Source: an uncultured Gammaproteobacteria bacterium (GTDB lineage: Bacteria > Pseudomonadota > Gammaproteobacteria > Xanthomonadales > Xanthomonadaceae). From it: a stretch of DNA of 35,661 nucleotides. Positions 7,684-25,363 of this stretch are shown piece by piece (within the stretch, counting starts at the first letter, position 1; the number at the start of each line of letters is the position of its first letter). The stretch covers positions 1 to 35,661 of the forward strand of contig CAJAPA010000118.1 of assembly GCA_903942465.1 (NCBI GenBank), in the 5' to 3' direction. The notes below the pieces were generated by a model. The model saw only the letters and a program-made list of their open reading frames with translations, did not search any database and was not told the origin of the DNA. Position numbers and translations under genes: made by a program.

Positions 7684-10600
7684 ATGTCCGCATTCCCCAG
7701 AACCCTCAGCCAGGATCAAGGCCGGCTGCACCGTCTGCAGGCCGCCGCCAAACGAAATCCGGCCGATGCGGAAGCAGCGCAGCGCCTGGCCGCCGCGCTT
7801 TCGGAAAGCCGCGCTGCCTTCGGGGTCCGCGCATCCGGATTGCCCGGGGTACAGGTCGATGAAAACCTGCCGGTCGGTCAGTATGCCGATCGGCTCCGCC
7901 AGCTGATCACCGATCACCCGGTTGTGGTGGTGGCCGGTGAAACCGGTTCGGGCAAGACCACCCAGATTCCGAAAATCTGCCTGAGTGCCGGCCGCGGCAT
8001 TGCCGGCATGATCGGCTGCACCCAGCCGCGCCGCATCGCGGCGCGAGCCGTGGCCAACCGCGTTGCCGAAGAGCTGCAGACGGCCGTCGGCGGCGCCGTC
8101 GGTTTCCAGGTCCGCTTCAACGAACAGGTCGGCGAGCGCACCTACCTGAAATTCATGACCGACGGCATCCTGCTGGCCGAGATCCAGAGTGATCCCTGGC
8201 TGTCGCGCTACGACACCCTGATCATCGATGAGGCGCACGAGCGCAGCCTGAATATCGATTTCCTGCTCGGCTACCTGAAATCCCTGTCTGCCCGCCGCCG
8301 TGATCTCAAAATCATCATCACCTCGGCGACCATTGATACCGCACGCTTCGCGGCGCATTTCGCCGACGCGCCGGTGCTGGAAGTGGAGGGGCGCAGTCAT
8401 CCGGTCGAAGTCCGCTACCGGGACTTACAGCGTCCCGGAGATCAGCCCGCCCGTGAGCGTGCCGATGATTTGACCCTCCCCGAGAAAATCGTGGTGGCGG
8501 TGGACGAGATCACGACGCAGGACGGACTCGGCGACATCCTTGTGTTTCTGCCCGGCGAGCGCGAAATCCGCGAAACCCATCTGGCCCTGTCACGGCGAAA
8601 ATACCGAGCGACCGAAGTCCTTCCGCTTTATGCCCGCCTTTCGGCCAAAGATCAGGACCGCGTGTTCCATCCCGATCGGGGGCGTCGCATCGTGTTGGCC
8701 ACCAATGTCGCGGAAACCTCGCTGACCGTGCCGCGCATCCGCTATGTCATCGATCCGGGCTTGGCGCGGGTCAAGCGTTATTCGCCGCGGCAGAAGATGG
8801 ACCGCCTGCAGATCGAGCCGATATCGCAGGCCAGTGCCAACCAACGCAAGGGCCGCTGTGGCCGGATTTCATCGGGCATCTGTTACCGACTGTACAGTGA
8901 AGACGATTTCAATCAACGCCCGGAATTCACCGACCCGGAAATCCGCCGGGCTTCGCTGGCCGGCGTCATCCTGCGCATGCTGCATCTGCGTCTCGGCGCC
9001 CTCGAGAAGTTTCCGTTCATCGATATGCCGGATGCGCGTGCCATCAATGACGGCTGGCAGAACCTCGCCGAACTCGGCGCCATCGATGCCCAGCGCCAGT
9101 TGAGCGTCATCGGCCGTCAGATGGCGCGTCTGCCGGTGGACGTCAAACTGGCACGCATGCTGGTCGCCGCCAACAGCCATGATGTCCTGCATGAAATGAC
9201 CGTCATCGCCGCCTTCATGGGCATAGCCGATCCGCGCGAACGGCCGGCGGATGCCAAAGAAGCGGCGGACAATGCGCACCGTCTGTTCCAGGATGCCTCT
9301 TCCGAATTCCTCGGCGTCATCGCGCTTTGGCGGGCTTACCGGACGGCTCATGAAGACCTGAGTCAGAGCCAGCTGCGCAAATGGTGCGAGCGTCACTTCC
9401 TGTCCTATCTGCGCATGCGCGAATGGCGTGAATTGCATCGGCAACTGCTGATTAGCTGCCAGGAGCTGCAATGGCCGTTGACCGCCTGGGATGCCATCGA
9501 GGCGAAGCTGCTGGCACAGGCCAGTGATGCCAAAGCCATGGCGCAGCACTACAGGCTGATCCACCGTGCGCTGTTGGCCGGCCTGCCGACCCAGGTGGGG
9601 CATCGCAATGACAAAGGCGGCTTCGATGCGCCACGCCAACGCCGTTTCAACCTGTTTCCGGCCTCGCCGCTGGCCAAACAGCCACCGTCCTGGTGTCTGG
9701 TCGGCAATCTGCTGGATACCCAGAAAGTCTGGGGGCTGATGGCGGCGCGCATCGAGCCCGACTGGCTGGTTGAAGAATGTCCACATCTGCTCACGCGCAC
9801 CTACCATGATCCGCACTGGTCGCGCCGGCAGGGCCGGGTGGTCGGGCATTGCCAGATCAGTCTGCTCGGTCTGTTGCTTGTGGCCAAAAAGCCAGTGCAT
9901 TACGGCGGATTGTTTCCCGAGGAGGCGCGTGGCATTTTCATCCGGCAGGCACTGCTGACCGGTGAAATCAACACGCGTTCGGGGTTCGTGTCGCGCAATC
10001 TGCAGATGTTGGCCAAAGCGCATGACGAGGAAGCCAAGCAGCGCCGCAGCGGACTGGTGGTCGATGAGCACTGGCAGGAACGCTGGTATCTGGATCGGAT
10101 ACCGCCCGAAATCTGCTCCTCGGAATCGCTCGACAAGTGGTTCCGTGCCTTGCCGGAAGCGAAAAAGCAGGGTCTGCTGTGGCAAAGCAGCGATCTGATG
10201 CTGGCCGAGCAGAGCGGTATTGCCTTGTTTCCCGACTATTACGTGCTCGGCAGCAATCGTCTGGCCTTGCATTACAGCTTCGCGCCGGGCCAGGCCGATG
10301 ACGGCGTCACTCTGGATGTGCCGATTCATCTGTTGAATGCCTTGGATGAGTCGCGTCTGAGCTGGCTGGTGCCCGGACTCCTTGAAGAAAAAGCCGCCGC
10401 CTTGATCCGCGCATTGCCCAAAACGCTTCGGCGCAACTACGTGCCGGCACCGGATTTCGCCCGGGCGTTCCGTCAGGCCTTTCCCGAGGCCGATGCCGAT
10501 GCGCTGGAAGGCGTGCTGGCACGGTTCCTGACCCGCAGCACCGGCGCTCCGGTCAGCGCACTGGATTTCAGGGAAGCGGTTCTCGAGCCGCATCTGCAGA

Positions 10601-20022: not shown

Positions 20023-21390
20023 TCAGGCCGGGCTGCCGACCAGTATCCAGGTACCCAAGCCCAGAAAGGCCAGGAAGCCCATCACATCGGTGACGGTGGT
20101 GACCACCACGCCGCCGGCAAGCGCCGGATCGATGTCCATGCGTTTGAGCAGCAGGGGTACGGCCACACCGGCCAGTGCAGCCACCACCAGATTGATCAGC
20201 ATGGCCGCCGCGATGACCATGCCGATTTTCGGCTCGAACCAGAGTGCCGAAATGACACCGACCACCAAGGCCCAGACGATGCCGTTGATGAAACCGACCA
20301 TGGTTTCCTTGTTGAACAGGGCTTTCAGATTGCCCAGGCCGACCTGGCCGAGCGCGATGCCGCGCACCATCAGGGTCAGGGTCTGGGTGGCGGCCACGCC
20401 GCCCATGCTGGCGACGATCGGCATCAGGATGGCCAGCGGTACGATTTTCTGCAGCGTGCCTTCGAACTGGCCGATGACCCAGGACGCCAGAAAAGCCGTG
20501 GCCAGATTGATGCCCAGCCAAAGCGCCCGGCGCTTGGCAGCGCGCGGTACCGGGCTGAACAGATCTTCGTCCTCGTCGAGGCCGACCGCGCTCAAAGCCT
20601 GATGTTCGGCCTGGCCGCGGATGATGTCGACCACGTCATCGATGGTGATGCGGCCGAGCAGGATGTTGTTGGCATCCACCACCGGCGCGGAAATCCAGTC
20701 GTGGTCGGAGAATTGCGTGGCCACTTCGTTGTCCGGCGTTTCCAGCGGGATGCCCGGCTGTTCGTCGTCGATCAGTTCGTTGATGGCGGTCGAAGGGTCT
20801 TTGGTCAGCAGGTCGCTGACCGAAATCCGGCCCATGTACTGGTTTCGGCGCGAGACCACGTAGAGGTAGTCGGTGTGCTCCGGCATTTCACCGCGCAGGC
20901 GCAGATAGCGCAGCACCACATCGATGTTGACGTCGGCACGCACGGTGATGACGTCGCTGTTCATCAGGCGGCCGGCGGAGTCCTCGGGATAGGACAAGGC
21001 CTGTTCGAGGCGTTCGCGATGGTCGCGGTCCATCGACTTGAGCACTTCCTCGATCACCGTATCGGGCAGGTCGTCGATCAGGTCGGCCAGATCGTCGAGA
21101 TCGAGGTCTTCCACGGCGGCGATGATTTCGTCCTGGTCCATCTCCGCGATCAGGCTTTCGCGCACGTCCTCGCCGACATGCACCAGCACTTCGCCGTCGT
21201 CTTCCGGATCGACCAGGCCCCAGACGATGTTGCGCTTGGCGGCGGGCAGGGATTCCAGCAGGTTGCCGATTTCAGCCGGCGAAAGGATGTTGACCAGACG
21301 CCGCACCGGTCCCAGACGGCCCGAATCAAGCGCGTCGGAGAGCAGGCGCAGCTGTTGCGCCGTCTTGGTGTGGCGGACGTGTTCAACCAT
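20023..21390 (-). CDS. mgtE: MgtE, magnesium transporter
   Basis: MgtE N-domain, CBS pair, C-terminal five-TM domain with GGVAATQTLTLMVRGIALG and TTVTDVMGFLAFLGLG. Confidence 0.95.
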   Translation of the reverse strand: MVEHVRHTKTAQQLRLLSDALDSGRLGPVRRLVNILSPAEIGNLLESLPAAKRNIVWGLVDPEDDGEVLVHVGEDVRESLIAEMDQDEIIAAVEDLDLDDLADLIDDLPDTVIEEVLKSMDRDHRERLEQALSYPEDSAGRLMNSDVITVRADVNIDVVLRYLRLRGEMPEHTDYLYVVSRRNQYMGRISVSDLLTKDPSTAINELIDDEQPGIPLETPDNEVATQFSDHDWISAPVVDANNILLGRITIDDVVDIIRGQAEHQALSAVGLDEDEDLFSPVPRAAKRRALWLGINLATAFLASWVIGQFEGTLQKIVPLAILMPIVASMGGVAATQTLTLMVRGIALGQVGLGNLKALFNKETMVGFINGIVWALVVGVISALWFEPKIGMVIAAAMLINLVVAALAGVAVPLLLKRMDIDPALAGGVVVTTVTDVMGFLAFLGLGTWILVGSPA

Positions 21391-21415
21391 ACGGTGCCCT
21401 CCCGGTAATCCGGGT

Positions 21416-21444
21416 ATTATCCGCGCAATCGGCGGCGATGAAAA
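21416..21444 (-). promoter_or_regulatory. candidate sigma-70 promoter for mgtE
   Basis: On minus strand TTTTCA-N17-GATAAT in the 66-bp gap upstream of mgtE. Confidence 0.45.
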
Positions 21445-21456
21445 GACGGAAAGCGC

Positions 21457-21720
21457 TTAATCTTCGAAGCGCCGCAGAAACAAGGCTTCGAGCGCATCCA
21501 GTGCCTGATCGGCATCCTCGCCGTCGGCGCGGGCGGTGATTTCGCGCCCCGGTCCGGCCGCCAGCAGCATCACACCCATGATGCTCTTGGCATTCACTTC
21601 GCGGCTGCCGAGGCTGAAGCTGACGTTGCATTCGAAATGGCTGAGGGTCTGCACGACCTTCGCGGACGCCTGCGCATGCAGTCCGTTATCCGCGCTCACC
21701 AGGAGTTTTCGTTCCGCCAT
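21457..21720 (-). CDS. HPr family phosphocarrier protein (His15 and Ser46 present, Arg17 replaced by Gln)
   Basis: MAERKLLVSADNGLHAQASAKVVQTL...REVNAKSIMGVMLLAAGPG; adjacent to rapZ and hprK; SD GGAG before ATG. Confidence 0.93.
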   Translation of the reverse strand: MAERKLLVSADNGLHAQASAKVVQTLSHFECNVSFSLGSREVNAKSIMGVMLLAAGPGREITARADGEDADQALDALEALFLRRFED

Positions 21721-21722
21721 AA

Positions 21723-22595
21723 TCACTCCAGTTCCCTGTGGTACACCATTACCTTATCATGCCCGCCGGCGCTGCAGTGCCGGGCCAGGCTTTCGGCCAG
21801 ATAGACCGAGCGGTGTTTGCCGCCGGTGCAGCCGAAAGCGACGGTCAGGTAGCTGCGGGTCTCGGCCTCGAAGCGGGGCAGCCAGGTATCGATGAACGCG
21901 GTGATCTGCTTCAGATAGGTGCCCACTTGCGGATCGGCCTCGAAATACGCTCTCACCACGGCATCCTTGCCCGACAGCGGGCGCAGCTCGGGCACCCAGT
22001 GCGGATTGGGCAGGCAGCGCGTGTCGAACACGAAGTCGGCATCCGGCGGTACGCCGCGTTTGTAAGCGAACGATTCGAACAGGATCGAAATGCTGCTGCG
22101 GGCATGGCCCTGGACTTCATCGAGTACGCGCTTGCGCAGCTGGTGCACGTTCAGTTCGGTGGTATCGACCACCAGATCAGCCAGCGCCACCAGAGGCTGC
22201 AGCTGACGGCGTTCCTGGGCGATGGCATCCGACAGCGGCAGTCCCTGCATCGACAGCGGATGCTTGCGGCGGGTTTCGGAGAAGCGCTTGATCAGCACCG
22301 CGTCGTCGGTGTCGAAGAACACCAGTTTGGTATCGAAGCCCTGGGCCTTGACCCGCGTCAGCAGATCGCCGATCAGGCGCAGGTCGTTGGTCAGGTTGCG
22401 GACGTCAATACCGACCGCGACCCGATGCCGGCGCAGGTCGTCGCTGGCCATGTTCTGCACCAGATCCGGCAGCAGATTGGCCGGCAGATTATCGACGCAG
22501 TAGAAACCGAGATCTTCCAGGGTACGCAATGCCACGCTTTTGCCGGAGCCCGACAGGCCGCTGACGATGACCAGGCTGGACGGCGTGGCGCTCAT
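21723..22595 (-). CDS. rapZ: RapZ, RNase adapter / nucleotide-binding protein
   Basis: [45 protein letters not shown]. Confidence 0.96.
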
Positions 22596-23545
22596 GAGGA
22601 CACATCCGTATTGTCGAGCAGCTGCTGGTGCCGGGCCATGAAATCGTTGGCCGGGTCCTTGCCCTGTTGGCGCAGCATCTGCAGACGTACCGCCACTTCG
22701 GTCAGTACCGCCAGATTGCGTCCGGGGGCCACCGGCAGATTGAACACCGGAATGTCCATGTCGAGCACGCGTTGCGTGGAGGCGGTGCCGGTCAGGCGGA
22801 AATCGGCATTGTTGTGTTCGGGCCGGAAGTGCAGCAGGTTGATGATCAGCTTCAGGTATTTGCTGCTCTTCACCGAGGTGTCGCCGAACATCTGGCGGAT
22901 GTTCATGATACCGAGGCCGCGCACTTCCATCATGTCCTGCAACAGGGGCGGGCAGCTGCCTTCGAGGATGCTGGGCGTGATCTGGGTGAACTCGGGAGCG
23001 TCATCGGCCACCAGCCGGTGGCCGCGGCTGATCAGTTCCAGCGCCAGCTCGCTCTTGCCGGCGCCGGCTTCGCCGGTGATCAGCACGCCGAACGAGAAGA
23101 TTTCCATGAACACCCCATGCAGCGAGGTCTGCGGCGCCAGACGCACCGACAGGAAATGCTGGAGCAGGTTCAGGCATTCAAAACCGCGGCGGTCGGACAC
23201 CCACAGCGCGACCTGGGCGTCCTCGCAGGCCTGTTGCAGATCGGCCGGGCAGGATTGGCCCTGACTGATGACCAGTGCCAAGGGATTCTGTTCGATGATT
23301 TTGCTGATGTTCTCCCAGCGCAGGCGCGCATCCAGACGATCGAGCCAGGCCAGTTCGGCCAAGCCGAGAATCTGTACTTTATTGGGATGGATGACATTCA
23401 GATAACCGGCCAATGAAGGCCGTTTAGAGGTCACTTCATTGCGGTCGGTGCGGACGTCCTTGCCTGACTTTCCGGCCAACCAGCGCAACGCGAGCGTCTG
23501 CTGTAACTGGTCGAACAGCTCGCGGGCACTGATGCTGGTATTCAT
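22592..23545 (-). CDS. hprK: HprK, HPr(Ser) kinase/phosphorylase
   Basis: [27 protein letters not shown] and HprK signature [15 protein letters not shown]. Confidence 0.96.
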
Positions 23546-23575: not shown

Positions 23576-23902
23576 CTAGCCAAATTTTTCCATCTTTGCC
23601 GCGCTTTCGCCGCGGTGATGGTCCTTCATTTTTTCCTTGTTCTTGACCACCATCCGGTCCAGTTTGTCGGCCAGCAGATCGATGGCGGCGTACATGTCGG
23701 GCGCGGTGGCGTAAGCGAAGTGGTTTTTACCGGGCGTGTGCAGGGTGGCTTCGGCTTTCTGCTCGAGCTTCTCCACGGACAGGATCATCTTGATGTCGAG
23801 ATGATGGTCGAAGTGTTTGCCGATGCGTGCCATTTTGTCTTCCGCGTAGCTGCGGATGGCGGCGGTGACGTCGACCTGGTGTCCGGTGATGTGCAGTTGC
23901 AT
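23576..23902 (-). CDS. hpf: Hpf/YhbH, ribosome hibernation promoting factor
   Basis: MQLHITGHQVDVTAAIRSYAEDKMARIGKHF; SD GGAGGT before ATG at 23902. Confidence 0.94.
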   Translation of the reverse strand: MQLHITGHQVDVTAAIRSYAEDKMARIGKHFDHHLDIKMILSVEKLEQKAEATLHTPGKNHFAYATAPDMYAAIDLLADKLDRMVVKNKEKMKDHHRGESAAKMEKFG

Positions 23903-23977
23903 GGTGACCTCCTTCTTTGGCTTCAGAACCAAGCTAGCACAGGCGGTGTTAAAAAAGAATCAAGCCCGCACGGCCGT

Positions 23978-25363
23978 TCACGGCGATTTTTTCCGGAGAT
24001 GTGAAGGCGGAATGCCGAGCGCTTCCCGGTACTTGGCAATGGTCCGGCGCGCTACCGGCAGGCCGCGGGCCGCCAACAGCTGCTCCAGCTTGGCATCCGA
24101 CAGCGGTTTGCCGGCCGGCTCGCCCGCAATCAGGTCGGCGATCTGGCCCTGCACGGCGCCGGCAGCCTGAACGGTTCCCGAATCATCGGTGATGCCGGAG
24201 CCGAACAGCGTGCCCAGTTCGATCATGCCATGCGGCGTGGCCAGCCATTTGCCGCTGCAGGCACGGGATACCGTTGATTCGTGCAGGCCGATACTTTCGG
24301 CGATTTCGCGCATGCTCATGGCCTGAAGGGCCGAAGGGCCGGACTCCAGGAAGGGTGTCTGTTTGCGGACCACCGCCTTCACTACTTTCAGCAGGGTATC
24401 GCGGCGCGATGCGATTCCGGCAATCAGCCAGCGCGCCTCCTGCAGATACTGGGCCAGATGCGCGGCATCGGCGCCCCGGCTGTTACGGGTCAGTTTCAGG
24501 TAATAGGCATTCAGTCGCAGATGCTGGCCGGCATCGCGCAGGCTCTGCACCTGCCAGCCGTTGCGTTTGGGCATTACCGCAAAATCGGGCTCGACGTACT
24601 CGGTGCGCGAGTGCTGGAACAGGGCACCGGGTTTGGGATCCAGGGTTTTCAGCAAGGCCACGGCTTCCGCAGTGCCCAGCGGATCGAAGCTGCCGGCTTT
24701 GGCCACTGCCGGCGCACCGCCCTTGGCCAGAGCATCGAGATGGCGGGCGGCGATCTCGGTCGCAAGTGCCAGCAGTGACGGTTCCGCCGCAATCTGGGTC
24801 AGCTGTACCTGCAGGCATTCCGACAGCGAGCGCGAGGCGACGCCGACCGGGTCGAAACGCTGAATCAGATGGCGTACCGCTTCGATTTCAGCCTCCTTTG
24901 CCGGGGGTGCCAGTGCGCTGGCCGTGCACAGTTCCTCGGCCGAGGCCTGGCAGTAACCGTCCTCATCGAGACTGTCGATCAGGGCTTCGCCGATGGCCAG
25001 ATCACGACGGCTCAAGGCGCTCAGCTGCAATTGTTCGCCGAGGTGGCTACGCAGGGTTTTGGGTTCCGGCAGCAGGTCCCAGAGGGATTCCTCCGCCTCC
25101 GGGGCGGCGGTATGCCGGAAATCCGCATCCGTATCCCCACGGTCCCCGGCTTCGGCATCTTCGGAAAAGTCGGCCGGTTCGTCCGGCAGGGCGGCGGTCT
25201 CGGTGTCGGCATCGATGCGCTCCAGCATCGGATTGGCGGCCAGCGCGTTGTCGATTTCCTGCTCGAGTTCGGTCTGCGTGCATTGCAGCAGCTTGAGCGC
25301 GAGCTGCAGCTGGGGAGTCAGCTTGGTGCTTTGCCGGGGCGAGAGCTGCGCACGGGCCTTCAT
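23978..25363 (-). CDS. rpoN: RNA polymerase sigma-54 factor
   Basis: Gln/Leu-rich region I, HESTVSR HTH, C-terminal RpoN box ARRTIAKYRE. Confidence 0.96.
   Translation of the reverse strand: MKARAQLSPRQSTKLTPQLQLALKLLQCTQTELEQEIDNALAANPMLERIDADTETAALPDEPADFSEDAEAGDRGDTDADFRHTAAPEAEESLWDLLPEPKTLRSHLGEQLQLSALSRRDLAIGEALIDSLDEDGYCQASAEELCTASALAPPAKEAEIEAVRHLIQRFDPVGVASRSLSECLQVQLTQIAAEPSLLALATEIAARHLDALAKGGAPAVAKAGSFDPLGTAEAVALLKTLDPKPGALFQHSRTEYVEPDFAVMPKRNGWQVQSLRDAGQHLRLNAYYLKLTRNSRGADAAHLAQYLQEARWLIAGIASRRDTLLKVVKAVVRKQTPFLESGPSALQAMSMREIAESIGLHESTVSRACSGKWLATPHGMIELGTLFGSGITDDSGTVQAAGAVQGQIADLIAGEPAGKPLSDAKLEQLLAARGLPVARRTIAKYREALGIPPSHLRKKSP

Follow-up and report, generated by a model that had tools for sequence, protein, structure and literature searches.

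A Gln17 HPr in an Arenimonas clade devoid of Enzyme I: probable loss of the PTS phosphorelay and retention of the HprK input

HPr is the classic two-input protein: Enzyme I (EI), which acts at His15, competes with HprK, which acts at Ser46. The HPr encoded in the window (the whole stretch of 35,661 nucleotides that was analysed) retains both residues and carries a glutamine at position 17, which raises the question of which inputs it still receives. The gene order around it is rpoN-hpf-hprK-rapZ-HPr-mgtE, all on the minus strand, and hpf-hprK-rapZ-HPr-mgtE is the operon that holds the HPr gene. The features are as follows.

23978..25363, minus strand: rpoN, start of the conserved rpoN-hpf-hprK-rapZ-HPr neighbourhood (Pfam, locus comparison)
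23576..23932, minus strand: hpf, ribosome hibernation / sigma-54 modulation protein (Pfam, locus comparison)
22592..23545, minus strand: hprK, HPr(Ser) kinase/phosphorylase, motifs intact (Pfam, motif check)
21723..22595, minus strand: rapZ, between hprK and HPr (Pfam, locus comparison)
21457..21720, minus strand: HPr gene, 87 amino acids, His15/Gln17/Ser46 (ORF translation, Pfam)
21670..21678, minus strand: His15 (CAT, 21678-21676), Ala16 (GCG) and Gln17 (CAG, 21672-21670), active-site codons checked
21585-21583, minus strand: Ser46 codon AGC, checked
21547..21603, minus strand: stretch around Ser46 (HPr residues 40-58, REVNAKSIMGVMLLAAGPG), identical in 10/10 EI-less genomes
21391..21456, minus strand: 66-base gap between HPr and mgtE (locus comparison)
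20023..21390, minus strand: mgtE magnesium transporter, next gene downstream of HPr (Pfam, locus comparison)

The minus-strand ORF 21720-21457 translates to MAERKLLVSADNGLHAQASAKVVQTLSHFECNVSFSLGSREVNAKSIMGVMLLAAGPGREITARADGEDADQALDALEALFLRRFED, whose numbering is that of canonical HPr; the earlier note had placed His15, Gln17 and Ser46 correctly to the base. The protein is a member of the HPr family by profile match and by fold. It matches PF00381 (PTS-HPr) with E=2e-25 and 89 bits (cut-off 23), and its AlphaFold model is a confident HPr fold (pLDDT 91.7) whose top structural matches in the PDB are HPrs (TM about 0.95), including the HPr of the HprK complex 1kkl. An assembly or binning artefact at position 17 is rejected, since the same residue and the same gene content are found in independently assembled genomes of relatives, including that of the isolate Arenimonas maotaiensis.

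The window's genome is a 2.07 Mb assembly of 193 contigs, with an estimated completeness of 100%. The observation that no EI gene lies nearby, made in the earlier note, extends to the whole genome: a profile search whose control profiles matched gave no PF05524 match anywhere, which rejects an EI encoded elsewhere. Profile searches of the same genome found no match to PF00359 (PtsN-type EIIA) or PF03610 (EIIA-Man), and a single HPr. The phosphorylatable His15 typical of the HPr family is present. Of the features of a functional PTS phosphocarrier, the Enzyme I donor, the EIIA acceptor and Arg17 are missing. The genome encodes one HprK (Pfam C-domain, E=3.2e-58), which keeps the P-loop (GEAGAGKS), the VADD motif and the signature motif. 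Judging from the sequences, both elements of an HprK-regulated HPr are present, namely Ser46 with its conserved helix and an HprK with intact catalytic motifs.

The EI-bearing members of the genus have the gene set rpoN-hpf-ptsN-hprK-rapZ-manX-HPr-EI, often with mgtE after it, and some carry the manX-HPr-EI block nearby in the opposite orientation. In these relatives ptsN is located between hpf and hprK and, in many of them, EIIA-Man between rapZ and HPr; both are missing from the window locus. Several EI-bearing relatives have the EI gene between HPr and mgtE, where the window has only the 66 bases.

The window's genome is Arenimonas-like (Lysobacteraceae), and among named organisms Arenimonas sp. 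GDDSR-1 and the isolate A. maotaiensis are closest to it; a search of the literature on the PTS of Arenimonas returned no relevant paper. The genus comparison covered 27 genomes, 15 with EI and 12 without. Arg17 is present in all 15 EI-bearing genomes. Ten EI-less genomes contain HPr, with Gln17 in nine and His17 in one (G008), and all ten keep His15; the remaining two assemblies are only 74% and 81% complete, and the contig of G016 stops just after hprK. The EI-less sister genomes lack PtsN as well and retain HprK, and the loss of HPr and HprK is seen in none of the ten. The replacement of Arg17 therefore co-occurs with the loss of EI, as had been proposed (10/10 EI-less genomes are not Arg, 15/15 EI-bearing genomes are), and EI-bearing close relatives with Gln17 were looked for in these 15 genomes and not found. 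Among EI-associated HPrs, mostly from the family, Arg17 is invariant in 136/136 sequences compared. The comparison suggests that Arg17 is a sequence marker of EI-dependent HPr. At positions 15, 17 and 46 the choice of synonymous codon varies.

In a tree of six locus genes, the EI-less genomes group together as a single clade and require one change of state only; a tree of four non-PTS genes likewise recovers this clade as monophyletic (support 98/99). Both trees rule out many independent losses of EI. The co-occurrence of Arg17 and EI is consequently a single event, which limits causal inference, and with one origin the loss of Arg17 could conceivably be unrelated to that of EI. HprK also has clade-specific residue differences, which a single event is too little to read as co-evolution with residue 17 of HPr. 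Arg17Gln might thus be neutral or lineage-specific, and have been fixed by chance on the branch where EI was lost: a single coincidence in time would suffice, and the HPrs of the clade are also set apart by changes at positions 11 (Arg/Lys to Pro/Glu/Asp) and 19 and in the acidic C-terminal tail. However, the residue concerned does not vary in the 136 EI-associated HPrs, and the substitutions that mark the clade cluster beside His15 and reduce the basic charge (positions 11 and 17). Residues 13-16, 18, 20-21, 23 and 40-58 are invariant in the EI-less clade. The basic charge beside His15 is gone and the helix that faces HprK is frozen. This agrees with the earlier description of the HprK target region, Ser46 included, as intact.

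Selection on the gene also bears on this point. A codon model gives HPr an omega of 0.078 for the EI-less clade, compared with about 0.08–0.09 for the EI-bearing relatives. In the absence of selection (omega 1), His15 would be kept in all ten genomes with a probability of about 9e-7, and position 17 would stay Gln or His with one of about 1.5e-6 (0.011 and 0.003, respectively, when the tree is cut to 30% of its length), values which are to be read as orders of magnitude because some branches are long. The retention of His15 without selection is implausible; purifying selection still acts on His15 and on position 17. The persistence of Gln or His at position 17 throughout a long tree makes a neutral Arg17Gln unlikely. 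The earlier note had considered that EI-dependent phosphorylation of His15 was "relaxed or lost": EI is indeed missing, but neither His15 nor position 17 can be called "relaxed". The window's own subclade (G000, G005, G006, G013 and G024) has a long branch in the concatenated trees, of about 0.7–0.8 changes per site, which reflects the fast evolution of this small-genome lineage.

Beyond the genus, HPr is missing from 124 of 125 EI-less genomes: from 7/7 at the level of the order, 79/80 in the class sample and 38/38 in the phylum sample (one of these 38 has a sub-threshold EI match). A survey published in 2008 reported the same strong correlation between EI and HPr, with few exceptions (PMC2405797). 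The lone genome that has HPr without EI, G266, is 94% complete and its HPr has Arg17; a congeneric genome has EI, and G266 (1/118 in the class and phylum samples) does not provide a usable second case. The HPr of the window might be a gene in decay that will eventually be lost, with the change at position 17 as an early step of pseudogenisation, given that EI-less genomes elsewhere are nearly always without HPr, that the locus has lost its other PTS genes and that EIIA-Man has been lost repeatedly. This is highly improbable, because omega is as low as in the EI-bearing relatives, the gene is intact wherever it is found among the EI-less genomes of the genus, and the residues listed above do not vary. 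The order-level family f8 (G079, G097, G104, G110 and G116) lacks HPr and HprK as well as EI, unlike Arenimonas, which kept the first two.

Another possibility is that some other donor, a PEP-using enzyme or a kinase, continues to phosphorylate His15 and that HPr keeps both modifications. The conservation of His15 in 10/10 EI-less genomes, beyond the neutral expectation, is in line with it. EIIA-Man is kept in only two genomes of the clade, G007 and G008, whose positions on the tree imply at least three losses, and that of G007 retains His10. On the contrary, the window's genome has no EI N-terminal domain, most of the clade lacks the EIIA acceptor, and the EIIA-Man of G008 (L155, about 10167-10556, next to HPr) has His10Tyr at its phosphorylation site, in the very genome whose HPr has His17. 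Furthermore, mutations of Arg17 impair the function of HPr with enzyme I (PMC5320558). An alternative donor is thus very unlikely.

The reading that we favor, with a probability of about 0.75, is that the HPr of the window has lost the PTS phosphorelay and acts solely as a substrate of HprK. EI-dependent phosphotransfer is almost certainly gone from the EI-less clade, as far as gene content can tell, and His15 is probably not phosphorylated there. In E. coli, the basic surface of HPr docks EI, and presumably it does so in Arenimonas. A single loss of EI and PtsN would go back to the ancestor of an Arenimonas subclade; once there was neither EI to dock nor phospho-His15 to stabilise, the basic residues near the active site (Arg17 and Arg/Lys11) would have been replaced. 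HprK would toggle Ser46, and the state of Ser46 would set the binding of HPr to its regulatory targets. The purpose of the HprK input in Proteobacteria is hard to read because it is entangled with that of EI. That selection on HprK and HPr persists in full in a clade which has no EI and nearly no acceptors indicates that the Ser46 branch plays a separate role that matters for fitness. This clade, which includes the cultured A. maotaiensis, is a natural case in which one half of a two-site switch would survive alone, and it offers a clean organism for finding that role.

A pure Ser46 switch leaves the conservation of His15 without explanation. His15 and Gln17 may have been held since the change because the unphosphorylated GLHAQAS surface contacts HprK or a target. 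It is possible, at somewhat less than even odds, that the active-site loop has been reused in this way, as a permanently unphosphorylated surface on a one-input Ser46 switch. In E. coli, Arg17 also helps HPr bind targets such as MtlR and Rsd (PMC5320558, PMC6763467). His15 and Arg17 are reported to differ in their roles in CcpA signalling (Horstmann et al. 2007, as cited in PMC4591507), and this report, in the form in which it is cited there, offers a precedent for a role of non-phosphorylated His15.

Xanthomonas campestris, which belongs to the same family, has the same locus order, an HPr with His15 and Ser46 and an active HprK (PMC6916182, PMC2405797). The purified HprK phosphorylates PtsH at Ser46, and also at Ser60 in vitro; by analogy, the HprK of the window would phosphorylate Ser46. 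The phenotype of the hprK mutant is suppressed by the deletion of ptsH, not by that of ptsI or of the EIIA genes. Overproduced PtsH-H15A still alters phenotypes, which S46A does not (PMC6916182). A finding that speaks against the favored reading is that the deletion of ptsH alone gave no phenotype in Xanthomonas (PMC6916182). The hprK-ptsH genetics shows that an EI-independent Ser46 branch was already present in the family. The partial regulatory PTS of Xanthomonas (EI-R, HPr, EIIA-Man, PtsN, HprK) keeps EI, PtsN, EIIA-Man and Arg17, whereas the window's genome has lost all four. We know of no report of a CcpA homologue in Xanthomonas.

Crh (catabolite repression HPr) of Bacillus subtilis is modified by HprK at Ser46 only. 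It shares the HPr fold with the HPr of the window, to which it is a structural match and which is likewise a predicted substrate of HprK. Its sequence GLQARPAA, matched to PDB 2rlz, has Gln15 and Arg17: Crh has lost His15, kept Arg17 and coexists with a full PTS, whereas the HPr of the window keeps His15, has lost Arg17 and is accompanied by no other HPr or EI. It is the mirror image of Crh rather than a Crh. NPr/PtsO of the nitrogen PTS resembles the HPr of the window in that it is encoded near rpoN/hpf/rapZ and is regulatory, without a sugar permease. However, its partners EI-Ntr and PtsN are both missing from the window's genome, which encodes HprK, absent from E. coli.

ptsH genes without a free-standing ptsI have been reported in Bartonella and Ureaplasma (PMC2405797), where, as in the window, HPr occurs and no free-standing EI gene was found. 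In the genus g460, which is probably Bartonella, all 30 free HPrs examined have Arg17, and most HPr-bearing genomes encode another HPr domain within a longer ORF (about 850 amino acids), probably an EIIA-HPr-EI fusion. This genus is rejected as a second case. One further sequence, L097, titled Bacillus subtilis SK7B5 (JAHREJ010000005.1), contains a xanthomonad-type HPr/EI locus whose HPr is 59% identical to that of the window; this assembly is probably contaminated or mislabelled.
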